Of a DNA stretch of 64,000 bases, positions 2,727-54,488 are shown piece by piece (position 1 is the stretch's first letter; every line of letters starts with the position of its first letter). The DNA is from Blautia sp. (GTDB taxonomy: Bacteria > Bacillota > Clostridia > Lachnospirales > Lachnospiraceae), in NCBI GenBank assembly GCA_026169535.1, contig JAPFCU010000079.1:1-64000 (forward strand). Direction: 5' to 3'. A program made the position numbers and the translations under genes. The notes below the pieces were generated by a model, which was not told the origin of the DNA, made no database searches, and saw nothing but the letters and a program-made list of their open reading frames with translations.

Positions 2727-4136
2727 ATGGAAATGACAAGAACAAAGACAGGTTTCTGGGGAAAATTTGTAGGTGATAAGGCTTTTTATAAGATGGTGCT
2801 TGCCATAGCCATTCCTATCATGATTCAAAATGGAATCACGAATTTTGTCAGCCTTCTGGACAACATTATGATCGGTCGGATCGGAACAGAGCAGATGTCA
2901 GGTGCTGCGATTGTAAACCAGCTGATCTTTGTATATAACCTTTGTATGTTCGGGGGACTTGCCGGAGCCGGAATTTTTACAGCACAGTATTTTGGACAGA
3001 AAGATCACGAGGGTGTCCGGCAGACATTCCGCTACAAATTCTGGATGGCAGTGATACTTACGGTTGCAACAGCTGTTGTATTTCTCACCTCCGGAGATTC
3101 ACTGATACGGATCTATCTTCAGGGGGAGGGAAGCGCAGCAGAGATTACAGCAACGCTGAATTATGGAAAACAGTATCTTTATATTATGCTGATCGGACTT
3201 CCGCCTTTTATGCTGGGACAGGTATATTCCAGTACTTTAAGAGAATGTGGAGAGACAGTTCTTCCTATGAAAGCCGGTGTAACGGCGGTTCTGGTGAACC
3301 TTGTTTTTAACTATCTTCTGATTTATGGAAAGTTTGGATTTCCACAACTGGGAGTTAGAGGCGCTGCCATTGCTACAGTAATTTCCCGTTATGTGGAGGT
3401 AGCGATCGTTTTAATATGGGCCGCACATAATAAGCAAAAGTTTCCATTTATAGAAGGTTTATATCACACCTTAAAAGTTCCAAAAAATCTGGCATGGAAA
3501 ATCTTTATTAAAGGAACGCCTCTGCTTCTGAATGAGGCAATGTGGGCCTGCGGTGTAGCCATCCTTGCCCAGTGCTATTCTGTTCGTGGACTAAACGTTG
3601 TAGCGGCACAGAATATTTCCAATACAATCAATAATGTGTTCAATATTGTATTTATTGCTCTGGGAGATTCTGTTGCAATTGTGGTTGGGCAGCTTCTGGG
3701 AGCTGGTGATATGAAAAAAGCAAGAGATACAGATAATAAAATGATTGCTTTTTCTGTCTTCTGCTGTATAGGGGTTGCTGCAGTATTGCTGATTCTTGCA
3801 CCACTTTTTCCGGAACTTTACAATACAAATCCTGAGGCAAAGAAGCTGGCCTGCCAGTTTATTATGATCAGTGCGTTGTTTATGCCAAATAATGCTTTTC
3901 TCCATGCAGCTTATTTTACACTTCGATCCGGAGGGAAAACAGTCATTACATTCCTGTTTGACAGTGTGTTTATGTGGTGTGTCAGCGTAAGCATGGCATT
4001 TGTATTAAGTCGATATACAGGATTGTCAGTAGTAGCTATTTTTGCGCTTGTCCAGGCGGCAGATATTATTAAATCTATTATCGGCTTTATCCTGGTAAAG
4101 AAGGGTGTATGGCTGCAGAATTTTGTTTCCGGATAA
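2727..4136 (+). CDS. MATE-family efflux transporter
   Basis: A 469-residue polytopic membrane protein with about 12 predicted spans in two homologous halves. The first half contains NFVSLLDNIMIGRIGTEQMS, the family signature in which the transporter packs around its cation and drug path. The usual role is Na+ or H+ driven export of cationic compounds. A strong Shine-Dalgarno (GGGAGGAGG) precedes the ATG. It stands alone between the sigma operon and a terminator, so its substrate cannot be inferred. Confidence 0.88.
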   Translation: MEMTRTKTGFWGKFVGDKAFYKMVLAIAIPIMIQNGITNFVSLLDNIMIGRIGTEQMSGAAIVNQLIFVYNLCMFGGLAGAGIFTAQYFGQKDHEGVRQTFRYKFWMAVILTVATAVVFLTSGDSLIRIYLQGEGSAAEITATLNYGKQYLYIMLIGLPPFMLGQVYSSTLRECGETVLPMKAGVTAVLVNLVFNYLLIYGKFGFPQLGVRGAAIATVISRYVEVAIVLIWAAHNKQKFPFIEGLYHTLKVPKNLAWKIFIKGTPLLLNEAMWACGVAILAQCYSVRGLNVVAAQNISNTINNVFNIVFIALGDSVAIVVGQLLGAGDMKKARDTDNKMIAFSVFCCIGVAAVLLILAPLFPELYNTNPEAKKLACQFIMISALFMPNNAFLHAAYFTLRSGGKTVITFLFDSVFMWCVSVSMAFVLSRYTGLSVVAIFALVQAADIIKSIIGFILVKKGVWLQNFVSG

Positions 4137-6667: not shown

Positions 6668-9067
6668 ATGAAAATTACAGAAATTTACAGCCCTCAGGAA
6701 GTTACAGATTTAGCCAAAAACAGATTTCAGGAAGAAAGATCATTGGATCATCTGGAAGGATGGTTTCTTGCAAGAGAAATTGCCATGAGATGTGATAAGA
6801 TTTATAAAAATGAACCGGACTGTATCCGAATTGCAAAGACTCAGGTGGAAATTATGAAAGAAATTCCTCTTACCCTGGGGGAATACCATGTATTTGCAGG
6901 AACTCAGGATGATGCTTTTGCCCGTTCCTATGCATTGATCAACCCATCTTTTACAGTGAACTCTTTTGCCGGCTATTGTGATCCTACGGCAGTTTTTGGG
7001 GATATCGCTCCAATTGGTGATATTACAAAGAAAAGAATTGATCATGTAAAAGACTATTATGCAAAGAATGAATTTGCGAAAGTGCTGACAGCGGCATATA
7101 AACCTGTAGAAAAATATACAAAAGAAGCAGTATTTTTTATAGAACAGGTGACCGGACATGTGATTCCAGATGTTCGCCATCTCCTTGAAAAAGGTGTTTT
7201 ATATGTGAAACAGGAGATTGCAGAGCATCAGGAAGCAACTGATGATCAGAATAAAAAAGATTACTATGAAGCAATGAGCATTACTATGGATGCACTTCTT
7301 GTACTTGCCGGCCGATATGAGGCTATGGCAACAGAAAAAGCCAAGCACAGTAAGGGTAAAACCAAAGAACGTTTTTTATGTATGGCAGAAAGCTTAAAAA
7401 GAGTTCCGGCAGAAGGTGCATCCGATCTTTATGAAGCGATTCAGTCTTTCCTTCTGATATGGCAGACCATGTGTCTGGAGCAGACTCCGAATCCATTTGC
7501 ATTTTCTGTTGGAAATGCTGACAGAATATTTGAACCATACAGGGCGAAAGAAAACCTGGACAGGGATACGGCCGCAGCGCTTCTGAAACATATGCTTGTA
7601 TATTTTAATGTGGCAGACAGAAGCTGGGCAATTTCCCAGAATCTGATTATTGGGGGAAGAGATATAGATGGAAAAGATATGACGAATCCAACTTCCTATG
7701 CACTTTTTGACGCATACTTTGATATGAATCTGCCTCAGCCGATTTTGTCTGTAAAACTTCACAAAAATACACCGGATAAACTTTATGAGGAAATGGGAAG
7801 ATTCTTTTTTACACCAGGTGTGCTTACTCCGTCACTATTTAATGATGATGCCCTGTTTGAAGTACTGGAGACTCATGGTACAGACAGAGAAGATCTTCCG
7901 GATTATTCTGTTGCAGGATGTCAGGAACCACTGATAATGGGAAAAGACAATGGAAATACAACGAACAGCTGGCTGAATCTGCCAAAAGTTCTGGAATTGG
8001 TGCTTCAGGGAGGTAAATCTGAGATTACAGGAGACCAGATTGGAAAAACGAAAGAAGAACTCGGTTATAGCAGTAATCTGGAACTTCTTAAAAATATCAG
8101 GGAGGTATTTTACAAAGAACTGGATTATTATGTTGATGAAATGGTAAGCTCAGCGAATAATGCGTCCAGAGCCATTGGACTTTATCAGGTTCCGTTCCTT
8201 TCTTCAATGATGGGAGGAATTGAAACAGGAATTGATATGCGTGATACAAAGCAGCAGGGAACAAAATATAATGGAAGCGGATGTCTGATTCATGGATTAA
8301 GCGTTTTGGCAGATTCATTTATTGCCATTGATACTCTGCTCAGAGAAAGGCCGGAAGATGCAGATAGGATGTTGGATGCATTAAGAGATAATTTTGAACA
8401 TGACAAAGAAATGCATCAGTATCTTCTGGAATGTGATAAGTTCGGTAATAATATTGAGGAAGTTGACAAAGAAGCAAAAGAAATCGCAGAAAAAGTTTCC
8501 GCAATGATAGCTTCTAAAAAGAATTATCTTGGCAATCCTTTCAGACCAGATTACGCGACTCCGTCTACGCATCTGATGTACGGGCACTGGGTAGGCGCTA
8601 CTCCAGATGGAAGAAAAGCCAGAGAAATGTTAAATTATGGTGTGGATCCCCTTTATGGAGAAGCTTCTGGAGGACTGGGAATGAGAATGCTGTCGAATCG
8701 ACAACTGCCATTCAGAACAATGAATGGTGGATATGCGTCTCATTTTGGTATAAATCCTGGTTATTTTAAAAGCATGACAATGGAAGAAAAAGGACTGGAA
8801 TTTAAGAAAAAAGTTTTTACCCCACTGTTTTTCAATAGTTATGATGAAAAAGAAGTCTCTCCATTTTACCTGTATGTGAATGTAACAACACCGGATATGC
8901 TTCTTAAAGTGTTGGAAAATCCAAAAAAATATGCACCAAGTGGTGTCTATATTGTAAGAATTCATGGAACATTTGTGAATTTTCTTGATCTTTCTCCAGA
9001 AATACAGGAGGATATCATTAAGAGACTGGATCCGAATTCAACTGCATTGAGCGGTTCGGGACATTAA
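6668..9067 (+). CDS. glycyl radical enzyme, pyruvate formate-lyase/dehydratase superfamily, substrate unknown
   Basis: A 799-residue GRE. The active-site loop is GCQEP, with thiyl Cys418 and likely base Glu420. The C-terminal glycyl loop is RIHGTFVNF, with radical Gly767 (consensus RVxGY). The Cys-x-Glu arrangement is that of the dehydratase/lyase branch rather than pyruvate formate-lyase, which has two adjacent Cys. The loop sequences deviate from the common GCVEP and RVSGYA, so this is probably not a standard glycerol, propanediol or choline enzyme. Flanking sugar importer, isomerase, kinase and epimerase genes point to a sugar-derived substrate (inference). The RBS is AAGGAGG. Confidence 0.85.
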   Translation: MKITEIYSPQEVTDLAKNRFQEERSLDHLEGWFLAREIAMRCDKIYKNEPDCIRIAKTQVEIMKEIPLTLGEYHVFAGTQDDAFARSYALINPSFTVNSFAGYCDPTAVFGDIAPIGDITKKRIDHVKDYYAKNEFAKVLTAAYKPVEKYTKEAVFFIEQVTGHVIPDVRHLLEKGVLYVKQEIAEHQEATDDQNKKDYYEAMSITMDALLVLAGRYEAMATEKAKHSKGKTKERFLCMAESLKRVPAEGASDLYEAIQSFLLIWQTMCLEQTPNPFAFSVGNADRIFEPYRAKENLDRDTAAALLKHMLVYFNVADRSWAISQNLIIGGRDIDGKDMTNPTSYALFDAYFDMNLPQPILSVKLHKNTPDKLYEEMGRFFFTPGVLTPSLFNDDALFEVLETHGTDREDLPDYSVAGCQEPLIMGKDNGNTTNSWLNLPKVLELVLQGGKSEITGDQIGKTKEELGYSSNLELLKNIREVFYKELDYYVDEMVSSANNASRAIGLYQVPFLSSMMGGIETGIDMRDTKQQGTKYNGSGCLIHGLSVLADSFIAIDTLLRERPEDADRMLDALRDNFEHDKEMHQYLLECDKFGNNIEEVDKEAKEIAEKVSAMIASKKNYLGNPFRPDYATPSTHLMYGHWVGATPDGRKAREMLNYGVDPLYGEASGGLGMRMLSNRQLPFRTMNGGYASHFGINPGYFKSMTMEEKGLEFKKKVFTPLFFNSYDEKEVSPFYLYVNVTTPDMLLKVLENPKKYAPSGVYIVRIHGTFVNFLDLSPEIQEDIIKRLDPNSTALSGSGH

Positions 9068-11746: not shown

Positions 11747-13264
11747 ATGAATGAAGTGATAGTATCAATGACAGATATCTGTAAAAGCTTTCCAGGTGTT
11801 AAGGCACTTGATCATGTTAACTTTGAACTTCGTTCTGGAGAGGTAATGGCTCTGATTGGTGAAAACGGTGCCGGCAAATCGACTTTAATGAAAATCCTCA
11901 GTGGAGTTTACACTAAGTACAGTGGAACTGTTAAGATCAATGGAGATGTATGTGAGGATTTGAATCCTAAAAAGGCACAGCAGCTTGGAGTTGCAATCAT
12001 CCATCAGGAACTGAATATGTGTAAACATCTTTCGGTTGCAGAGAATATTTATCTTGGACGTGAATTGAGAGGAAAGTTCTGTATTGATAACAGAACAATG
12101 GAAGCAGAGGCACAGAAGATTCTGGATGAATTGGGAATTAACATTAAACCATGGGAGAGTGTAGGTAATCTTCCGGTTTCCAAACAGCAGATGGTAGAGA
12201 TTGCCAAGGCACTTTCAATCAATGCAAAAATAATGATTATGGATGAACCGACATCAGCGCTTACTTCTAAAGAAATAGATGAATTATTCCGAATTATTCG
12301 AAAATTAAAAAAAGAAGGACATGGCATTGTATACATATCCCACAGACTGGAAGAATTTCAGCATATTGTAGACAGAGTTACTATTATGCGAGATGGTCAG
12401 TACATTATGTCCGGCGATTTTAAAGAGCTTACTATGGACAAGATGATTTCCTATATGGTTGGACGCGAAATTAAAGAGAAATTTCCACGAGTTCAGTGTG
12501 AAAAGGGAAAAAAAATATTTGAGGTTCGCAACCTGAATGCGGGAAAAATGGTCCGTGATATTAATTTTTCTGTCTATGAAGGAGAAATCGTGGGTTTTGC
12601 AGGGCTGATGGGTGCTGGAAGAACCGAGACCACCAGAGCAATCTTTGGAGTGGATCCTAAGGAAAGCGGTGAGATTTATGTAGATGGCAAGGAGGTTAAA
12701 ATCAACTGTCCTCGGGACGCCATCCGAAATGGTGTTGTACTTGCTCCGGAAGACAGGAAGAAAGATGGTCTCTGCACGAAACTGAGCATACGTCATAATA
12801 TGGCACTGCCCAATCTTGATCTGATCGGAAAACATGGAATTGTAAATTCTGCAAAAGAAGAGAAGTTGTGTGAAAAGATTGTAAAAAATTTTCAGATTAA
12901 GACTCCTAATGTTGAGATTGATTCTGGTAATCTTTCCGGCGGAAATCAGCAGAAAGTAGTAGTTGGTAAATGGCTTGCCAGAAATTCCAGGGTTGTCATT
13001 TTTGATGAACCTACCAGAGGAATTGATGTTGGTGCCAAGGTTGAGATATATAATCTGATGAACCAGTTGAAAAAGCAGGGAATTGCCGTAATGTTTGTTT
13101 CGTCCGAAATGCCAGAGGTTATGGGACTGGCAGACAGGATCATTGTTATGTGTGACGGCAGGATAACCGGAGAACTTACTGCAGCAGAGGCTACTCAGGA
13201 CAGTATTTTGAAAATGGCGACAGCTTTTAAAAACAAAAATATTTCAGACAGTGAAGGGGAATAA
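11747..13264 (+). CDS. sugar ABC transporter ATP-binding protein (RbsA/MglA type, two ATPase domains)
   Basis: A 505-residue protein with two fused ABC domains. Domain 1 has Walker A GENGAGKS (about residue 38) and Walker B IMIMDEPTSAL. Domain 2 has a degenerate Walker A (GLMGAGRTE), a classical signature LSGGNQQK and Walker B VVIFDEPTRG. This is the carbohydrate uptake CUT2 layout. It powers import with the permease and binding protein encoded next, from which it is separated by one base. Confidence 0.95.
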   Translation: MNEVIVSMTDICKSFPGVKALDHVNFELRSGEVMALIGENGAGKSTLMKILSGVYTKYSGTVKINGDVCEDLNPKKAQQLGVAIIHQELNMCKHLSVAENIYLGRELRGKFCIDNRTMEAEAQKILDELGINIKPWESVGNLPVSKQQMVEIAKALSINAKIMIMDEPTSALTSKEIDELFRIIRKLKKEGHGIVYISHRLEEFQHIVDRVTIMRDGQYIMSGDFKELTMDKMISYMVGREIKEKFPRVQCEKGKKIFEVRNLNAGKMVRDINFSVYEGEIVGFAGLMGAGRTETTRAIFGVDPKESGEIYVDGKEVKINCPRDAIRNGVVLAPEDRKKDGLCTKLSIRHNMALPNLDLIGKHGIVNSAKEEKLCEKIVKNFQIKTPNVEIDSGNLSGGNQQKVVVGKWLARNSRVVIFDEPTRGIDVGAKVEIYNLMNQLKKQGIAVMFVSSEMPEVMGLADRIIVMCDGRITGELTAAEATQDSILKMATAFKNKNISDSEGE

Positions 13265-16639: not shown

Positions 16640-17518
16640 ATGAATTATAAAATTTCAAATTCCATACTGACAGTAAAAATATCATCCAGAGGGGGAGAAC
16701 TCCGGTCCATGTGTGATTCAGATGGTCAGGAATATATCTGGCAGGGAGATAAAGAAATCTGGGAAGACAGAGCACCGAACCTTTTTCCTTATATAGGAAG
16801 GATGACTGAAAAAAGTTATCAGTTTCAGGGAAAAAGATATCATATGGATATTCATGGATTTCTTCCAACCTCAGAGATGGAGCTTGTGTCAAAGACGAAA
16901 GAAAGTCTGACATTGAAACTGGATGCATCAGAAGAAACACTGATACAGTATCCTTTTCTTTTCAGTCTGGAAATAACCTGGACTCTTGTTGGGGAAAGGC
17001 TGGAGATTGCTTATCAGGTGAAAAATAAAGATGAAAAGACGATGTATTTTGGAATAGGCGGACACCCAGGATTCATAGTACCAGTAGATCAGGGCGCAGA
17101 ATTTGAAGATTACCGTATTGATTTTGGTGTAAATGCGTCACCAAAAAGGGTGAAAATGTCGGAAGACTGCTTTGTTTTGGAAGGAGATGAATTTCTGGAA
17201 TTAACAGAAAAGCGATATCTTAATTTAAGACATGATTTGTTTGACCATGATGCGATTATTCTGAAAAAAGTACCGAGGGAAGTAAAGCTGAACAGCGAAA
17301 AAGGAGATAGGGAAATCGTGATCAGTTTTCCAGATATGGATTATTTGGGAATCTGGCACAGACCATTAAAAACTCCGAATTATGTATGTATAGAACCATG
17401 GAGTTCTCTTCCTTCCAGAAAAGATATTATAGAAGATATTGCACAGCAGCCTGGTTTGATAGCGCTGGAAAGCGGGGGAGTTTATCGAAACAGCTGGAGC
17501 ATACTGATTAGACAGTAA
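16640..17518 (+). CDS. aldose 1-epimerase-like protein (LacX type)
   Basis: A 292-residue beta-sandwich mutarotase-like protein. Visible landmarks are the APNLFPYIGR loop (about 50), the HGFLP His (about 74), GIGGHPGF with the second catalytic His (about 140) and CIEPWSS with the catalytic Glu (about 255). It interconverts alpha and beta anomers of the sugar before isomerisation. It is the last gene of the sugar locus. Confidence 0.85.
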   Translation: MNYKISNSILTVKISSRGGELRSMCDSDGQEYIWQGDKEIWEDRAPNLFPYIGRMTEKSYQFQGKRYHMDIHGFLPTSEMELVSKTKESLTLKLDASEETLIQYPFLFSLEITWTLVGERLEIAYQVKNKDEKTMYFGIGGHPGFIVPVDQGAEFEDYRIDFGVNASPKRVKMSEDCFVLEGDEFLELTEKRYLNLRHDLFDHDAIILKKVPREVKLNSEKGDREIVISFPDMDYLGIWHRPLKTPNYVCIEPWSSLPSRKDIIEDIAQQPGLIALESGGVYRNSWSILIRQ

Positions 17519-45592: not shown

Positions 45593-45986
45593 ATTACCAA
45601 GAGTAAGAGTGACAAATCAATATGAGGGTTGGCTTGGTACTGAATGCTACATAGACGGAAAGAAAGTCAAAAAGGTAAAGCGAATTGATTTCAGTGTTGG
45701 GGGTGAGGAAGTCCCGACATTCGTATTTGAAACAATGGGGATTCCAGATATAGATATGCATGGAAGAGTTATTTTAGATTGTAATCCGAAAAATGTTACA
45801 GAGGCGGTAAAAATTCTTAGGAATGAACTTCTGAATCACGAAGATCTGTACGATGGTTTTACCGCCAGTATCACAAGTGCATTGAAAGACCATTGGTGCT
45901 GTGGACTTCCATTTGAACCAGAGGAAGATGTGGCAAAGAAGATTTTGGATTATGTGATCGGAGGAGAGTATGAAGAAAAAGAGTAA
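45582..45986 (+). CDS. prophage hypothetical protein, 134 aa
   Basis: Soluble acidic protein with a beta-rich N-terminal half (RVTNQYEGWLGTECYIDGKK) and a helical C-terminal part. It overlaps the previous gene by 11 bp. A C-C pair is at DHWCCGLP. Not recognised. Confidence 0.5.
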   Translation: MENELPRVRVTNQYEGWLGTECYIDGKKVKKVKRIDFSVGGEEVPTFVFETMGIPDIDMHGRVILDCNPKNVTEAVKILRNELLNHEDLYDGFTASITSALKDHWCCGLPFEPEEDVAKKILDYVIGGEYEEKE

Positions 45987-46173
45987 TGCAGCGGCAACGT
46001 TGGCGATTATATTACTTGTGCTATCAGCAATTGGCGTTTCATGGGGCGTAACCTGTGGACTGCTAAAATTAATCACTATGTGTTTCGGATTGGAATTTAG
46101 TTGGGGAGCATCTACTGGGGTTTGGCTTCTGTTTGTACTCTTTAACTGGATGAGAAAGTCAAATAAGGAGTAG
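45970..46173 (+). CDS. small membrane protein, 67 aa
   Basis: Two predicted membrane helices (about residues 9-33 and 38-59), a basic start (MKKKSN) and a basic end (RKSNKE). It overlaps the previous gene by 17 bp and has GGAGGAG at the right distance. It is followed at once by another single-span mini-protein. Holin-like size, but it lies far from the lysis region. Confidence 0.55.
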   Translation: MKKKSNAAATLAIILLVLSAIGVSWGVTCGLLKLITMCFGLEFSWGASTGVWLLFVLFNWMRKSNKE

Positions 46174-46176
46174 GAT

Positions 46177-46341
46177 ATGTACGCATTTAAAATTGTTACG
46201 ACAACGTTAAACATTCTTATAATGGTGATAATCTTGTGGTTTATGAGTAGCCTTGACTGGAAAAAACACAAATCAAGTATTATCGGATTTTCATTTATGC
46301 AAATCGTGTATCTGATGAATATGTTCTGTATGTGGAGATGA
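46177..46341 (+). CDS. small membrane protein, 54 aa
   Basis: A 54-residue product with two hydrophobic stretches (LNILIMVIILWFM, and IIGFSFMQIVYLMNMF). The ATG at 46177 comes 3 bp after the previous stop, with AAGGAG at the right distance. Function unknown. It likely works with the preceding membrane protein. Confidence 0.5.
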   Translation: MYAFKIVTTTLNILIMVIILWFMSSLDWKKHKSSIIGFSFMQIVYLMNMFCMWR

Positions 46342-46450
46342 AGATATTTGCCCTGTCAGGCTATGAGTTCAGAAGAGAATGGCTGCAAAGAAAAAGCACA
46401 ATGGGGTATGCGGAGAATATAACTGGGAATATCCGCAGTAAAGGAGAAAA

Positions 46451-46609
46451 ATGTTGATTTTTTACTTTGGGATTCTCCAATTTGAAAAGTGTTGGGAGAT
46501 AATATCTCAGCCGGAAGAATTGGTTGAATTTATAAAACCAAAACCACCGTCTGTCAGAGATAGGCTTGGGGTTGCTTATGTGGCGGATCGGTCGAGGCAT
46601 CCAGTTTAG
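46451..46609 (+). CDS. small phage protein, 52 aa
   Basis: The ATG at 46451 is 4 bp after AAGGAGAAAA. The product has a hydrophobic N terminus and a Pro- and Arg-rich end (KPKPPSVRDRLG). An even shorter frame (20 codons, ATG at about 46379) with CGEYNWEYPQ lies just upstream. Neither is recognised, and this one is plausible but not certain. Confidence 0.4.
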   Translation: MLIFYFGILQFEKCWEIISQPEELVEFIKPKPPSVRDRLGVAYVADRSRHPV

Positions 46610-46726
46610 ATGGAGCCTGAATTGATGAAAACAGAATAGATTGAATATGAATAAAACCCCGAATTTCTATAAGTAATTGGTTCAGGCGTAAATTTAAAAT
46701 AATTTGAATTTATAGCAGCTAAAAGG

Positions 46727-46753
46727 AATCGGCGGTATAAATCACCGCCGATT
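46727..46753 (+). other. perfect hairpin directly before tRNA-Gln
   Basis: AATCGGCGGT pairs perfectly with ACCGCCGATT around ATAAATC. It ends 3 bp before the tRNA acceptor. There is no T run, so it is more likely a processing or structural element of the RNA cluster than a terminator. Confidence 0.6.
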
Positions 46754-46756
46754 TAA

Positions 46757-46828
46757 TGGGGTATCGCCAAATGGTAAGGCACAGGATCTTGATTCCTGCA
46801 TTTCTGGGTTCGAGTCCCAGTATCCCAG
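46757..46828 (+). tRNA. phage tRNA-Gln (TTG anticodon)
   Basis: A 72-nt cloverleaf: acceptor TGGGGTA/TATCCCA with discriminator G as in tRNA-Gln, D arm GCC..GGC, T arm with TTCGAGT. The anticodon stem is CAGGA/TCCTG and the loop is TCTTGAT, so the anticodon is TTG. Position 33 is C where almost all tRNAs have U. CCA is not encoded. Confidence 0.88.
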
Positions 46829-46830
46829 TT

Positions 46831-47126
46831 CAGTTATCTTTTTTAGATAACTGCCAATAACTACCTCCTAGCGGAATGCTGACTAAAGGTGCGTCACAAG
46901 TGCCGGGAGGTTTTGCATTGGAGCCTAGGTAATCTAATGTGATGCTTGCCGGAGCAATCAAACCGAGCCTGGACTTGCATACTTCATGGGATGCCCAAGA
47001 TGGTGTATGCACGAGACAAAGTTGTGGGTACGAGCGTTAATTAATCTTATCTTTAAAAAGAGAAAACCCTCTAGTGCCAAGGCATAGCACGAAAAATATG
47101 TTGCTAACGGCAGAAATGCCGTTTAA
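46831..47126 (+). ncRNA. structured non-coding RNA segment A between phage tRNAs (GOLLD/ROOL-like)
   Basis: 296 bp with no gene and dense helices: CAGTTATCT/AGATAACTG (46831-46853), a closed domain CCAAT/ATTGG (46854-46921) with ACCTCC/GGAGGT inside, TGCATAC/GTATGCA around TGGG/CCCA (about 46976-47010), GTGC/GCAC (about 47074-47090) and AACGGCA-GAAA-TGCCGTT (47106-47123) with a GNRA loop. GNRA loops and nested long-range pairs mark a folded RNA. Position next to phage tRNAs is the known setting of GOLLD and ROOL RNAs. I cannot classify it without a covariance search. Confidence 0.6.
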
Positions 47127-47199
47127 GCAGGGAAGGTGATGTGGTACGTTGCACCTGGCTTATATCCAGTGATTGTGGGTTCGATTCCTACTCCCTGTA
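47127..47199 (+). tRNA. tRNA-Ile-like (TAT anticodon), somewhat degenerate
   Basis: Acceptor GCAGGGA/TCCCTGT, T arm GTGGG/CCTAC with TTCGATT, discriminator A. The anticodon stem has a 4-bp core CTGG/CCAG with loop CTTATAT, giving anticodon TAT (Ile, AUA). The D arm is poor and the fifth anticodon pair is mismatched. Charging is plausible but not certain. Confidence 0.6.
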
Positions 47200-47512
47200 C
47201 TTTTCCATATAGCAAGGCAACTTATACCTGCTGAAGAATCTTGCAAAAAAACTTTTCCAGAGAGATAAGACCACAGACCGTGAGTAGCAGTAGTCGGTAA
47301 TTCTGGAACGTTCCTGGAAGTGCATGATTAGTTCACACCTTTTTAAGGTTAATCAAGCTGAACAAGTGGTTTTATAAGGGGATGTCGTAAGACGATGCAT
47401 AAGTCATGTCAATTATATGGCAACGATCACATGGATAAGCAACTTGTGATTTGCGGGACGCCGGACTTATATCGCAGACAAAGCATCAACAAAAAGACAT
47501 AGTATATCCGGT
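47200..47512 (+). ncRNA. structured non-coding RNA segment B between tRNA-like elements
   Basis: 313 bp without a gene. Visible pairings: GCAAG/CTTGC (about 47211-47243), CCAGA/TCTGG enclosing about 45 nt, ACCTT-TTT-AAGGT (about 47337-47348), TCGT-AAG-ACGA (about 47385-47395) and ATCAC/GTGAT (about 47426-47449). It continues the fold-rich region of segment A past the embedded tRNA-Ile. The pair A plus B may be one RNA interrupted by a tRNA. Confidence 0.55.
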
Positions 47513-47581
47513 TGCCATGTAGCTCAGTTGGAAGAGCAATCTACAAAAGATATGTCGGTGGTTCGATTCTGCCCATGGCAA
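47513..47581 (+). tRNA. degenerate tRNA-like element
   Basis: Acceptor TGCCATG/CATGGCA (7 bp), perfect D stem GCTC/GAGC and good T arm (GGTGG/CTGCC around TTCGATT). Only about 20 nt lie between D and T stems, so the anticodon arm and variable loop are too short for a normal tRNA. No U33 or convincing anticodon is seen. It is a tRNA mimic or a decayed tRNA. Confidence 0.55.
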
Positions 47582-47616
47582 TTAGGCTTTGTGTAATGAG
47601 CCAATAATCAATGCAT

Positions 47617-47695
47617 ATCTGTGGAGGGAGAAAAAAGGCAGGCAGCGCCTTACTATAGTCGGCTCGGCTCCGGCACACAGATTTATTATTTTTTT
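47617..47695 (+). terminator. possible terminator of the RNA cluster
   Basis: ATCTGTG pairs with CACAGAT (47617-47623 / 47676-47682), with G/C-rich inner helices (GGCTCGGCTCCGG region), then TTATTATTTTTTT. It would end the transcript carrying the tRNA-like elements just before the next gene. Confidence 0.5.
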
Positions 47696-47710
47696 GTGGG
47701 AGAAAGCAAA

Positions 47711-48190
47711 ATGACAGAGGTTGAAAAATTAAAAAAGGAAATAGAGAACCTTAAAACTGAATTAGAAAAAGAGAAAAAATGTTATTTTAAAATTGATGAA
47801 AACTTTTTTTATGTAAAAGTAAGAGAAGCAAATTTGTTGAAAAAAAATCAAAATCTACAATATGAATTAAATCGTATGCAGGAAGAAAATGCTCATTTAG
47901 AAAAAGAAAATGCAGATATTCAGAATAGCCATATGAAACTGTACAACGATACAAAAGATGAAATCCGGGAATTAAAAGCAGAAATTGAAAGATTGAGAAA
48001 AAAGTGCGGAGAGGTTCCGTGTGAAGGTTGCGATTGCAAATCAGAAGGAATGAACCTTGAAGCGTTGGTTTACGAACTCCAAGACCAACATCAGCAGGAT
48101 TGCATCCGGTACAATGATATGAGGACAGCGTTTCTGAAAACAGTTGATGAGTTAGCTTTGTTGCGGAAACATTTCGGAGTGGGACAGTAA
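47711..48190 (+). CDS. coiled-coil phage protein
   Basis: 159 residues from ATG 47711 (GGGAGAAAGCAAA before it). Residues 1-100 are a long charged coiled coil (MTEVEKLKKEIENLKTELEK, LRKKCGE). A CEGCDC cluster is near residue 110, followed by a short helical tail. A longer frame from 47621 would translate the terminator hairpin and is rejected. Possibly a multimeric structural or regulatory protein. Confidence 0.6.
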   Translation: MTEVEKLKKEIENLKTELEKEKKCYFKIDENFFYVKVREANLLKKNQNLQYELNRMQEENAHLEKENADIQNSHMKLYNDTKDEIRELKAEIERLRKKCGEVPCEGCDCKSEGMNLEALVYELQDQHQQDCIRYNDMRTAFLKTVDELALLRKHFGVGQ

Positions 48191-48212
48191 TGTATATATA
48201 TGAATCACACAT

Positions 48213-48413
48213 ATGGACAATCAAGAAATGATTGAAGCAAGCCCTCTTGATGATATGGAACTTGAATTAAATCTGAAAGATATAACACCTGTAGACGGAT
48301 TGACAACGGATGATTTATTTCTGATTTTGTTTTGTGGGTGCGATATTGAGAAAGTAAAACAGAACAATCGGCGTAAAATGCACGGGATTCCTATGAGGAG
48401 GAAGATAAAGTGA
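48213..48413 (+). CDS. prophage hypothetical protein, 66 aa
   Basis: Acidic N-terminal half (SPLDDMELELNLKDITPVDG) and a basic C terminus (NNRRKMHGIPMRRKIK). No clear ribosome site is visible, so the start is uncertain. The stop overlaps the GTG start of the next gene. Confidence 0.4.
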   Translation: MDNQEMIEASPLDDMELELNLKDITPVDGLTTDDLFLILFCGCDIEKVKQNNRRKMHGIPMRRKIK

Positions 48414-50962: not shown

Positions 50963-51513
50963 ATTTATTTTTTGATTGTGAGTTTACTGGACTTTGCAAA
51001 GACACAACGCTTATCAGTTTAGGAATTGTGTCTGAAGACGGAAAAAAGTTTTATGCGGAATTTACGGATTATGACGAGAAGCAGTGTGATGATTGGATAA
51101 AGAAAAATGTAATTGGTCACCTGATATTAGGACATGAAAATATTGTCACAACTAAAAACGGAGATGTTTTTATAAGAGATAACAGAAAAGAAATTAGAAG
51201 AGCACTTTTGAGTTGGATACGGAGAGATGTTGTACTTCAATTTGTCTCTGATGTATGCCATTACGATTTTGTTCTTCTGATCGACCTTCTGACAAACGGT
51301 GGAACCGCACTTGACCTTCCGTTGAATATTCCTGCTGTATGCCATGACATAAACTATGATATTGCAAGGCATTATGGAATTTCTGAAAGAGAAGCATTTG
51401 ATAAGTCCAGAGAAGAAATTGTTTCTGAATTATGTGGACATGAAATTATTGGAAGAAAGCATAATTCTCTGTATGACGCAGAAGTGATTAAAGCTATTTG
51501 GGAGGAAGTATGA
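50959..51513 (+). CDS. DEDDh 3'-5' exonuclease (DnaQ/RNase H fold)
   Basis: 184 residues with all DEDDh motifs: Exo I FDCEFTG (Asp and Glu, residues 5-11), Exo II around CHYDFVLLIDLL (about 97-108) and Exo III HNSLYDAEVI with His and Asp (about 168-177). The compact form resembles the Rv2179c-type RNase/DNase family. Start and stop overlap both neighbours by 4 bp (ATGA), so it is translated together with the RtcB-like ligase and probably acts in the same RNA pathway. Confidence 0.8.
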   Translation: MNLFFDCEFTGLCKDTTLISLGIVSEDGKKFYAEFTDYDEKQCDDWIKKNVIGHLILGHENIVTTKNGDVFIRDNRKEIRRALLSWIRRDVVLQFVSDVCHYDFVLLIDLLTNGGTALDLPLNIPAVCHDINYDIARHYGISEREAFDKSREEIVSELCGHEIIGRKHNSLYDAEVIKAIWEEV

Positions 51514-52703
51514 GCGATTTAAAAATTTTTACGGATAACATAGGACCAGAAGCACTTAATCAGATTCATACCCTTGTAAAGCAGTCAGCTTTTTTCGATT
51601 GCAAAGTAAGAATTATGCCAGATGTCCATGCTGGTAAAGGGTGCGTAATCGGATTTACCGCAAATTTGGGAGATAAAGTTATTCCTAATATTGTTGGTGT
51701 AGATATTGGTTGTGGTATGCTATGCTGTGAAATTGGAAAAATTGATATTGATTATGAGAAATTAGATTGTGTTATTCGCAAACATATTCCGGCAGGACGA
51801 GCGGTAAGGGAAGAAGAAATTAACTTTCCACAATTGGAAAATTTATACTGCAAAGACCAACTGAAAAACATGGAATGGCTAAAATGCAGCCTTGGAACTC
51901 TTGGTGGAGGAAACCACTTTATAGAGGTTGACGAGGACGCTAAGGGGATGAAATACCTCGTTATCCATACAGGTAGCCGGAATCTCGGAAAACAGGTTGC
52001 AGAGATTTATCAGCAAATGGCTATTGATGATATGCGAGGAATGAACAAACTGTCTGAGGAAAGACAAAAGCTGATAAAGGAATACAAGGTATCTGGAAAA
52101 CAAAAAGATATTCAAAAAGGTCTTATAGAACTTAAAAGAAAATGGAAACCTGATAAGTTGAATATACCAAAAGAACTTTGCTATTTGACTGGAGAACACA
52201 GAGATATGTACTTGCATGATATGAGGATATGTCAAAGATTTGCAAGTCAGAATCGAATTGAAATTATGAGAACAATATTTAATAAGATGGGGTGGGGAAT
52301 GGATTTTGATTCGTTTGAAACCGTTCATAACTACATTGACCATGATACCAATATTGTTCGCAAAGGTGCTATATCAGCCAAAAAAGGAGAAAAGGTCTTA
52401 ATTCCTATCAATATGCGTGATGGTTGCATTATAGGAATTGGAAAGGGTAATGAAGATTGGAATTTCTCTGCTCCTCATGGTGCAGGAAGAATAATGAGCC
52501 GAAGAAAGGCAAAGGAGTCGGTGTCCATTGAAGAATATAAATCGTCTATGACGGGTATTTACACAACATCAGTTAATCAGTCTACGATTGATGAAAGTCC
52601 TATGGTGTATAAACCTATTGAGGAAATTATACATAATATACAGGAAACATCGGAAATATTAAAAATCATTAAGCCAGTGTATAATTTCAAAGCAAGTGAA
52701 TAA
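51510..52703 (+). CDS. rtcB: RtcB-family RNA ligase
   Basis: 397 residues. Recognisable RtcB motifs: PDVHAGKG (37-44), GVDIGCGM with metal ligands Asp65 and Cys68, GGGNHFIE with His136, HTGSRNLG with His153, HNYIDH, and the guanylated His323 in HGAGR. RtcB seals RNA with 2',3'-cyclic phosphate (or 3'-phosphate) and 5'-OH ends using GTP and Mn2+. All key residues appear intact. It is the partner of the exonuclease gene it overlaps. It could repair phage or host tRNAs cut by anticodon nucleases. Confidence 0.9.
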   Translation: MSDLKIFTDNIGPEALNQIHTLVKQSAFFDCKVRIMPDVHAGKGCVIGFTANLGDKVIPNIVGVDIGCGMLCCEIGKIDIDYEKLDCVIRKHIPAGRAVREEEINFPQLENLYCKDQLKNMEWLKCSLGTLGGGNHFIEVDEDAKGMKYLVIHTGSRNLGKQVAEIYQQMAIDDMRGMNKLSEERQKLIKEYKVSGKQKDIQKGLIELKRKWKPDKLNIPKELCYLTGEHRDMYLHDMRICQRFASQNRIEIMRTIFNKMGWGMDFDSFETVHNYIDHDTNIVRKGAISAKKGEKVLIPINMRDGCIIGIGKGNEDWNFSAPHGAGRIMSRRKAKESVSIEEYKSSMTGIYTTSVNQSTIDESPMVYKPIEEIIHNIQETSEILKIIKPVYNFKASE

Positions 52704-52727: not shown

Positions 52728-52774
52728 AAGAGCCGGACTTTCCTGAATAAAAATGGGAAGGAGGCTCTTTTTTT
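52728..52774 (+). terminator. terminator-like hairpin overlapping the terL ribosome site
   Basis: AAGAGCC pairs with GGCTCTT and CTTTCC with GGGAAG, followed by T7, just before the terL start. The descending strand contains the AAGGAGG ribosome site. Read-through is required for terL expression, so this is a probable control point between early and late genes. Confidence 0.7.
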
Positions 52775-52775
52775 G

Positions 52776-54488
52776 ATGGAAGGAAGTATGGAATGGTACA
52801 AAGGACTGTTCCAACAAATTATAAGTGATGGATTGAAGAACAAAATCAACCAGAGGGATTGTCTGGACTTGCTTCTGAACATGAGAGAGGACTTTGCTTT
52901 CTCTGAAAACAAGGAAGTCCGGGACTACGCCATGAAAATCAGCAAGTACGCACATGAGATGGCAGGATACATGGCGGCTCAAACCGGAAGTGGAGAATTT
53001 GATGATTTGTACTGGAAGTATTTGCTGTTGGAAGCACAAAACTATCAGGTAGACAGCGGATTGCTTTATCTCGAAAAAAACAGACTTCCAAAAGAACGGT
53101 TTTATGAACCAAGACGGGAAGTGTTCGTAAAACATCAGATTATACAGAGCTTGCAAGATTTAATGGATGATGAATTGGATATATTTGGCTTGAGTGTCCC
53201 GCCCGGATGCGGAAAATCCACACTTGAAGATTTTTTTCTTTCACTTGTCGGAGGGTGGTTTCCGAACGATTTCAACCTTTCATCAGCACATAGTAGCATT
53301 TTGACCCGTTCCCTTTACGATGGGGTACTTGAGATTATCAATGATCCGGTGGAATATACATGGCATGAAATTTTCCCAACAGTACAGCTTACCAATACCA
53401 ATGCGAAAGAAACAACTGTAAACCTTGAAAGAAATGGACGATTTAAGACGTGGACATTCCGGTCTATAGACGGTTCTCTTACAGGTGCTACCCGATGTAA
53501 TAGATTTCTTACAGCTGATGACCTTGTGTCTGGTATTGAAGAGGCATTGAACAAAAACCGATTAGAAACCCTTTGGACAAAGGTTGTCAACGATTTACGT
53601 TCCAGACGATTAGAGGGGTGTAAAGAAATTTATATAGCGACTAGGTGGTCGGTACACGATCCAATAGGTAAGCTACAACAACTTTATGAAGGGAATCCAA
53701 AAGCTAAATTCATAGCTATTCCAGCTTTAGATGAAAACGGAGAAAGTAACTTCATGTTTACTGTAAATGGGTTCTCTAAGAAATATTTTATGGATGCTAA
53801 AGAGTCTATGGATGATATTTCTTTCAACTGTTTATATCAGCAGCAACCGATTGAAAGAGAAGGATTGCTTCTCCCTGCATCTGAGTTGAGAAGATTTTTC
53901 TTTTCAAAAGATCAAGTACCAGAGAAACAAATGCAATTTACTATTTTTCCGGATAGAGAACCTGACGCCATATGGGGAATATGTGATACAAAAGATAAGG
54001 GAACAGACTTTGAATCATTACCAATTGCCTATCAGTTTGGAGAAGATTTTTATATTCCGGCAGTGGTGTTTGATGATAATACAGACTACGATACCTTAGA
54101 CAGGAAAACAGCGGACATAATTATTGAGCATAACCCTCATAAGATGAGGTTTGAGTCAAATCAAGCCGGAGGACGTATTGCAGACAATATCGAAAAAATG
54201 GTTAAGGGAAAATGTAGGACAAGTATTGAAACGAAATATACTACAGCGAATAAAGAAACCAAAATACTGGTTAATGCAGACTGGATCAAAAAACATTGCC
54301 TCTTTTTAGAGCCAAGTCTTTACACGCCGAAATCCGATTATGGATTGTTTATGGGGAACGTTTGCAGCTATACAACAAAAGCAAAAGTGCCTCATGATGA
54401 CGGAATAGATTCACTCAGTATGTTGGCGGAGTACGTGCAAGATATGTTTGGAAGAAAAGAATCCAGAATCATAAAAAGTCCCTATTAG
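52776..54488 (+). CDS. phage terminase large subunit
   Basis: 570 residues. The ATPase part has Walker A PPGCGKST (about 146), a Walker B-like region near FLTADDLVSG (about 248) and a DEDD-like RNase H nuclease domain in the second half (the WGICDTKDKGTDFES strand near 400, and LSMLAEYVQD near 555). It pumps DNA into the prohead. The 120-residue N-terminal extension is helical. A start at 52788 is also possible. No small subunit gene is adjacent. Confidence 0.88.
   Translation: MEGSMEWYKGLFQQIISDGLKNKINQRDCLDLLLNMREDFAFSENKEVRDYAMKISKYAHEMAGYMAAQTGSGEFDDLYWKYLLLEAQNYQVDSGLLYLEKNRLPKERFYEPRREVFVKHQIIQSLQDLMDDELDIFGLSVPPGCGKSTLEDFFLSLVGGWFPNDFNLSSAHSSILTRSLYDGVLEIINDPVEYTWHEIFPTVQLTNTNAKETTVNLERNGRFKTWTFRSIDGSLTGATRCNRFLTADDLVSGIEEALNKNRLETLWTKVVNDLRSRRLEGCKEIYIATRWSVHDPIGKLQQLYEGNPKAKFIAIPALDENGESNFMFTVNGFSKKYFMDAKESMDDISFNCLYQQQPIEREGLLLPASELRRFFFSKDQVPEKQMQFTIFPDREPDAIWGICDTKDKGTDFESLPIAYQFGEDFYIPAVVFDDNTDYDTLDRKTADIIIEHNPHKMRFESNQAGGRIADNIEKMVKGKCRTSIETKYTTANKETKILVNADWIKKHCLFLEPSLYTPKSDYGLFMGNVCSYTTKAKVPHDDGIDSLSMLAEYVQDMFGRKESRIIKSPY

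Follow-up and report, generated by a model that had tools for sequence, protein, structure and literature searches.

The window analysed here is a stretch of 64,000 nucleotides (64 kb) at the start of one contig of a Blautia sp. genome, which is assembled as 2.6 Mb in 85 contigs. Its first 96 positions are the 3′-terminal part of a 23S rRNA gene. The window also carries a prophage, with a resolvase-type recombinase, an HNH protein, an RtcB RNA ligase, a 3′-5′ exoribonuclease-like protein, a terminase and a portal protein. An earlier, sequence-only reading of this DNA had also placed the region in a prophage. Its description of a gene-free region also agrees with what is seen. From about 46610 to 47710 there is no convincing gene; open reading frames reach at most 60 amino acids, and one longer frame enters with its GTG end, its likely start being the ATG at 47711. 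This ATG and the end of a small upstream reading frame at 46609 form the borders of the gene-free stretch, which has a GC content of 0.439 against 0.382 and 0.357 in the flanks. Downstream on the + strand lie the phage RtcB gene (51510–52700; PF01139, E 2.3e-57) and the open reading frame of the terminase large subunit (52773–54488; phrog_38, E 1.7e-50), which serves as the landmark 3′ of the island.

Three tRNA-like elements had been noticed within the gene-free stretch, all on the + strand, and two of them are called as tRNA genes by ARAGORN. These are a tRNA-Gln with anticodon TTG (46757–46828; Rfam tRNA model, 57.0 bits) and a tRNA-Ile with anticodon TAT (47127–47200; 37.5 bits). The third (47513–47581) matches the Rfam tRNA model at 45.1 bits and has a counterpart in the related locus L006, but its anticodon arm is abnormal. 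ARAGORN calls no tRNA at 47513–47581, two anticodon-stem pairs are broken in the Rfam alignment, and the element departs from the canonical cloverleaf; it is probably degenerate. In other loci, Rfam tRNA matches 120–127 nt long are found at L010 4568–4818, L012 872–1122, L016 8805–8930 and L024 765–890, as if these tRNAs held an insertion of about 50 nt.

The two spacers are 298 nt (46829–47126) and 312 nt (47201–47512) in length, with tRNA-Ile between them. Both had been described as fold-rich, which holds for spacer 1 (z −2.81, with 2 of 200 shuffles as good) but not for spacer 2 (z 0.30, 60 of 100 as good). Perfect hairpins lie exactly where they had been placed. One (46727–46753, +) is just 5′ of tRNA-Gln and is terminator-like on the − strand only, according to a terminator scanner. 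Another (46831–46853, +) has a 9-bp stem, starts 2 nt past tRNA-Gln, and is the predicted 5′ end of spacer RNA 1 from the sequence and its fold. The third (47106–47123) has the GNRA loop ascribed to it, GAAA, in the window, but the loop varies among homologues. The terminator-like end proposed at 47617–47695 is not borne out: the segment 47582–47697 is no more stable than its shuffles (z −0.31, 76 of 200 as good), and no + strand terminator is called in 45900–48300 under a rule that admits loops of at most 8. From its fold and alignment, this tail (47582–47695, +) consists of a short hairpin GGCTT...GAGCC, a weak long stem and then T-rich DNA, a terminator function being unsupported. A promoter scan of the + strand of 45900–48300 called nothing.

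We compared the island with catalogued RNAs, since it had been assigned either to the giant phage RNAs GOLLD and ROOL or to a new large RNA class. The covariance models gave no match in the window at the membership cut-offs of 99.1 bits for ROOL (RF03087) and 150 bits for GOLLD (RF02032). A cmscan of 46300–48300 with lax filters and E-values up to 5 returned the three tRNAs and two chance-level matches only. The ROOL model finds nothing in the window's genome and matches three of the 31 genomes or records searched: L037 (345.5 bits), L016 (340.7 bits) and L024 (203.5 bits). All three have terminases related to that of the window, and in two of them a small conserved element of the island, element A, stands 5′ of ROOL, at about 170 nt in L037 and about 240 nt in L016. 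The island thus resembles ROOL in being structured RNA of a phage tRNA island; it differs in that the ROOL model describes one RNA of 574 positions, whereas the parts in the window are small, separable and split by a tRNA. The ROOL of L037, used as a query, has no match among phage records. GOLLD is described as a phage and prophage RNA near tRNA islands (PMC12286853), the same niche as that of the island in the window; its model is unmatched in the window and in all 14 genomes or records searched (the window's and 13 others), a search in which no positive control matched. The Rfam models for DUF3800 RNA and skipping-rope RNA, and those for self-cleaving ribozymes and RAGATH motifs, have no match in the window. 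Among the related phages, Dulem virus 39 (L026) carries two type II hammerheads and a RAGATH-27 motif, at 1654–1721 (−), 3863–3927 and 8033–8116, and L025 carries RAGATH-18 at 12204–12276; these ribozyme-bearing phages have related terminases.

What had been seen as a nested domain at 46854–46921 corresponds to element A (46863–46911, +), a conserved three-way junction of about 50 nt defined by a covariance model and alignments. It is composed of a 7-bp stem P1, a 3–5-bp arm P2, a linker (GACTAAA; most copies have 7 nt here) and a 5-bp arm P3. The model match in the window extends to 46915 and scores 64.0 bits, the window being among the sequences from which the model was built. A structure descriptor found the common 7-bp stem, 3–5-bp arm, linker and 5-bp arm and missed the copies in L016 and L029. 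The junction is the RNAfold minimum in four of five copies tried; the minimum of the window copy keeps P1 only. In its 5-bp stem and 7-nt loop, P3 is reminiscent of a tRNA T arm or anticodon arm, and the loop reads KUCANAW in the core set. Position 5 of the T loop is constant in tRNAs. In element A this position varies and the loop is lost in divergent copies, and we rejected the identification with a T arm; element A is no tRNA.

Conserved base pairing among homologues is found for element A. In a MAFFT alignment of 15 sequences, 97.2% of cells are paired and 13 of the 17 pairs are changed on both sides. A 28-sequence alignment, which was fitted to the model so that its counts lean towards it, gives the same 97.2% of paired cells, and here 15 of the 17 pairs show changes on both sides. 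Shuffled versions of this alignment average 67.9% paired and slid versions reach at most 46.3%. The set has 121 cells changed on both sides, and none of 500 shuffles was as high on any of five measures. All 28 sequences share a U-G pair at the P1 base and an A-U pair as the first of P2. Because the U-G pair would become a mismatch on the other strand, we assign the element A RNA to the strand of the tRNAs. The window copy has the three covarying helices and the invariant U-G and A-U junction pairs by which we recognise the family. The 28-sequence set (A4) omits the near-duplicates L032, L047, L067, L072 and L131 and the weaker model matches L038, L040, L045, L049, L051, L052, L055, L070, L071 and L103:4598. 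Copy counts are not independent, since the relatives have common ancestry.

The search pattern for element A was taken from five copies and relaxed once; stretches found with it score well with the model in 11 of 13 cases from IMG/VR and in 3 of 17 from GTDB (L047, L050 and L054). Under strict filters, which lose weak matches, the model (R1) finds element A in four of 397 genomes of the family, the source genome included, and in two of 391 genomes of the class, the source genome and one other at 23.1 bits. It is present in 27 of 31 genomes or records, mostly as one copy per record; this search missed copies in L008 (30.3 bits) and at L103 6011 (28.4 bits), both of which rest on cmsearch alone.

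Homologues of the locus were found in IMG/VR with the terminase as anchor. Element A occurs in 17 of 88 anchored loci; where the upstream sequence exceeds 8 kb, it occurs in 9 of 29. In all 17 it lies 5′ of the terminase and on the same strand, at distances of 0.28 to 8.1 kb, and the window has the same arrangement at 5.9 kb. None is downstream of the terminase in the anchored loci, where 522,707 downstream and 473,924 upstream bases were covered. The sample was picked by its terminase, so that closeness is built in and the side alone is informative, and it includes close relatives (L120/L131 and L019/L022). Copies found by the pattern have a related terminase 0.5 kb (L035) and 1.7 kb (L037) downstream, and in Dulem virus 39, whose record is circular, one lies about 3 kb downstream when the sequence is read through the origin. 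Elsewhere the setting differs. No related terminase turned up in the stretches searched around seven copies detected by pattern or by model, those of L029, L030, L031, L032, L050, L054 and G442. In L030, element A stands between portal and minor capsid genes, and in G442 it precedes scaffold and major head genes. In L032 it is followed by a DUF2828 protein and then, 6.4 kb downstream, by a RecT-like recombination protein. The few reading frames typed in L050 and L054 encode, besides an HNH protein and a host-like Cas protein, products of unknown function. The seven stretches in which no related terminase was found and the RecT-like gene of L032 indicate that the association of element A with packaging genes is not universal. 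Some copies, for example in L030, L035 and L123, have no tRNA called from 600 nt before to 900 nt after them; tRNA punctuation is therefore not the sole setting of element A.

In some phages the island with element A is followed by genes for DUF2828/DUF7788 proteins (L010 3091–4551, L181 433–1935 (−) and L184 13484–14938 (−)). These DUF2828/vWA proteins belong to L010, L031/L181 and L032/L184, and that of L184 also matches phrog_850, an RNA-binding protein. A Ro60/Y-RNA system was considered and rejected: the TROVE domain was found in 0 of 28 records, with 1 of 14 control genomes matched.

A pyrimidine tract commonly adjoins element A. The motifs CTCCT, TCCTTT or CCTCC are found within 16 nt 5′ of the element in 22 of 28 copies, compared with 0.97% of random 16-mers nearby, the pattern having been chosen after viewing the copies. 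The tract is absent from the window, from one copy each in L005 and L100, and from L030, L035 and L103. In the window, the P1 strand itself reads ACCTCCT. The letters of the tract are complementary to Shine-Dalgarno sequences (CUCCUUU-like), and the 3′ tail of 16S rRNA holds an anti-Shine-Dalgarno sequence like it. Pairing of the tract with element A was rejected, since it is possible in 13 of 26 copies against 10.9 by shuffling, with 129 of 500 shuffles as high (L054 and L019 were left out of these 26 rows). Reading the tract from the opposite strand as a ribosome-binding site was also rejected, since by eye the start codons show no consistent placement.

Spacer 1 ends in a second conserved element, element B (47072–47126, +; 58.9 bits with its model), found by a pattern of the form UAGUG...CACGAWAAA followed by a variable GC hairpin (47106–47123). 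The pattern occurs in the window, in L006, L023, L032, L059, L078, L084 and L087, and twice in L029; other pattern matches with different surroundings were dropped by eye. A covariance model (R2) searched against 65 chosen sources added a copy in L080, and 11 of its 12 matches were kept, the one dropped scoring 14 bits at window position 16665. In the window the hairpin ends 3 nt before the start of tRNA-Ile. The 3′ edge of element B was set by eye at the tRNA, and placement was measured from the strongest hairpin alone; on this measure, 0–4 nt separate the end of the hairpin from the start of a tRNA in 10 of the 11 copies. Six of these tRNAs are called by default ARAGORN (0–3 nt), three by permissive ARAGORN (1–4 nt) and one by Rfam, in an L029 copy that lies 3 nt before a 30.6-bit tRNA match. 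The L080 copy does not fit this placement. The hairpin covaries in part. Twelve cells are changed on both sides, a number equalled by none of 500 shuffles, and the three pairs changed on both sides do not rise above shuffling (325 of 500), in an alignment with one misaligned L029 row. A small upstream stem is invariant in all copies and hence gives no covariation signal.

Neither element A nor element B matches a family of Rfam 15 in the window or in the other copies scanned, a set that leaves out L078, L080, L084, L087, L100, L103, L120, L123, L131–L133 and L136. No Rfam ribozyme lies at either element in the other loci scanned. In the literature searched, no title or abstract describes either of them. 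Anonymous candidate lists, such as the 3161 candidate RNAs that PMC8040213 says it places in supplementary tables, lie outside that scope and may hold them. The two elements are best filed as new families among the small structured RNAs of phage non-coding islands. The undescribed RNA system of the sequence-only reading is supported in a smaller form, as two conserved elements without an Rfam match in the scanned copies, of which A covaries strongly and B more weakly.

The remaining parts of the island are also modular. Module M (46912–47071, +; about 160 nt), delimited by alignments and a two-sequence consensus fold, lies between A and B in L006 as well. Its stem at 46975–47012 (+) pairs in both sequences, in agreement with the long-range stem previously noted near 46976–47010; the pairing is kept in L006 with three pairs changed on both sides, a count from two sequences only. 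Spacer 2 holds module E (47201–47377, +), with the conserved core TTTTCCAGAGAGATAAGA...GTAGTCGGT.ATTCTGGAA, and module C (47387–47478, +), which runs ATAAGTC...GGGACGCCGGACTTATATCGCAG; each was aligned over four loci, with mean column identities of 74% for E and 84% for C. In C, 6 of 26 predicted pairs are changed on both sides, mostly in a side hairpin, and in E 7 of 30, mainly in the leading hairpin, which is broken in some sequences. In L006, E contains a 16-nt gap, which speaks against a reading frame in this module. C forms the 3′ end of a more extended conserved stretch, 79% identical between L029 and L059 over 329 columns. Pattern matches to C in L058 and L060, and to E in L061 and L063–L066, have coding-like surroundings and were dropped by eye as chance.

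The order of the modules changes from one relative to the next. In L006, whose terminase is 76% identical to that of the window, tRNA-Gln is followed by A, M, B and tRNA-Met, and then by tRNA-Phe, E and C. In L059, C precedes B and tRNA-Tyr, and E follows behind the next tRNA-like gene. E is immediately 5′ of tRNA-Gln in L062, and in L029 A joins B directly and M is absent. These differences in order among the window, L006, L029, L059 and L062 show that the region is a mosaic, with modules that can move. At the DNA level, spacer 1 matches only its own genome among 392 genomes of the order, and spacer 2 matches its own genome and three stretches of 25–28 nt among 397 genomes of the family. The window query matched 23 phage records, and the 20 listed all match over tRNA-Gln; plasmids gave no DNA-level match. 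Two interleaved stems that apparently co-vary, possibly an H-type pseudoknot module, were noticed by eye in L006 (about 2830–2870), in L026 (about 8950–8995) and at the end of L029, but not in the window.

A stretch of L006 just before C matches the gap between yonN and yonK of the Bacillus phage SPBc2 (84% over 63 columns). This gap (L187 1326–3006, 1.7 kb) contains a DUF3800-VIII RNA (RF03075) and a sub-cut-off match to skipping-rope RNA (RF02924). It is similar to the island in being gene-free in the SPBc2 annotation, in holding more than one RNA module, and in the stretch common to L006; another SPbeta-derived record annotates a 135-nt reading frame in it. It differs in that no tRNAs are called in the gap and element A is unmatched there. 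The window region itself has no match to the gap.

We consider this region to be a mosaic tRNA island 5′ of the prophage terminase, in which tRNA maturation frees the spacer RNAs, and we give this reading a probability of about 0.5. A transcript started upstream would cross tRNA-Gln, spacer RNA 1 (A-M-B), tRNA-Ile, spacer RNA 2 (E-C) and the decayed tRNA. Host RNase P, at the 5′ ends of the tRNAs, and RNase Z or exonucleases, at their 3′ ends, would cut at the tRNAs and free the spacers. Spacer RNA 1 (46829–47126) would then start with the hairpin 2 nt past tRNA-Gln and end in the GC hairpin of element B, and both hairpin-sealed ends may resist exonucleases. We infer release by RNase P and RNase Z from anatomy, namely the B hairpin at tRNA starts and the hairpin 2 nt after tRNA-Gln. 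The modules, their conservation and covariation and their places were observed; transcription, cutting and function of the spacers are proposed. For element A, the frequent position before a terminase and the anti-Shine-Dalgarno-like tract suggest that its most likely role is in the expression of phage genes or in translation.

The island could instead encode one large RNA of the GOLLD or ROOL type, with embedded tRNAs, that assembles itself into a cage. The niche is the same, and in two loci with terminases related to that of the window, L016 and L037, element A is followed by ROOL. Yet neither model matches here, C and E can be separated and change their order, E stands ahead of tRNA-Gln in L062, and in L029 A and B adjoin without M. 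This reordering disfavours one large RNA, which we regard as very doubtful, and the occurrence of the modules apart and in other orders leaves a new large RNA class unsupported as stated. Another explanation is decay, under which the region is functionless debris of tRNAs and mobile elements. The damaged third tRNA, the unstable module order and the unremarkable stability of spacer 2 are consistent with it, but A covaries strongly and keeps its junction pairs invariant in divergent phages, and this, like the placement of B hairpins at tRNA starts, argues otherwise. We consider debris improbable for the region, and for A and B it is already disfavoured. A self-cleaving ribozyme at A or B, with products joined by the phage RtcB ligase, is suggested by the presence of RtcB near the island in both the window and Dulem virus 39, the latter with its hammerheads and RAGATH-27. 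Against this, of the 27 records searched besides the window, many being fragments, Dulem virus 39 alone has RtcB, a result on which we rejected a fixed RtcB partnership, and no Rfam ribozyme matches A or B in the scanned copies; a ribozyme is very improbable.

Other explanations concern the action of element A itself. It may be a cis-acting leader of the late operon, passing transcription through untranslated RNA into the packaging genes, either by antitermination like that of put or EAR, or by other control of polymerase or ribosome. Its position 5′ of the terminase and on the terminase strand in 17 of 17 anchored loci, with the pattern-found L035 and L037 in agreement, its proximity to head genes in L030 and G442, and its mostly single copy per record all fit a leader. 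However, the anchored sample was selected by terminase, no terminator partner was found, and L029, L031, L032 (with its RecT-like gene), L050 and L054 show no related terminase or known head gene in the stretches searched, where some of the reading frames were typed; we judge a leader unlikely. Element A might also act in trans, mimicking the 3′ tail of 16S rRNA by pairing with Shine-Dalgarno sequences or binding ribosomal factors. The tract beside P1 in 22 of 28 copies speaks for this, as does the finding that its pairing with element A does not exceed chance, but the window and five other copies lack it and a pyrimidine tract has other possible uses, which makes mimicry rather improbable. 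A further reading, which is very unlikely, makes element A a dedicated RNA component of one clade of tailed phages, a three-way junction with a 16S-tail-like arm, mostly placed before terminase or head genes, that switches translation of phage genes or serves as an RNA cofactor of packaging. To our knowledge, the latter role is known only for the packaging RNA of the phi29 type. That RNA, too, is a small phage RNA with a three-way junction, and element A is often near packaging genes; the likeness is one of general resemblance, not of compared sequences or structures.

Giant RNAs of unknown function, such as ROOL and GOLLD, are known to reside in the tRNA islands of phages. The mosaic island described here shows this niche occupied by small, interchangeable RNA cassettes. 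One of them, element A, is associated with ROOL in two phages and frequently with the gene block of the terminase; it is short and defined by covariation, and mutational tests on it would be far easier than on a 600-nt cage. Element B suggests a tRNA-bounded release route for such RNAs, and SPbeta is a laboratory phage in which comparable RNA arrays could be studied.
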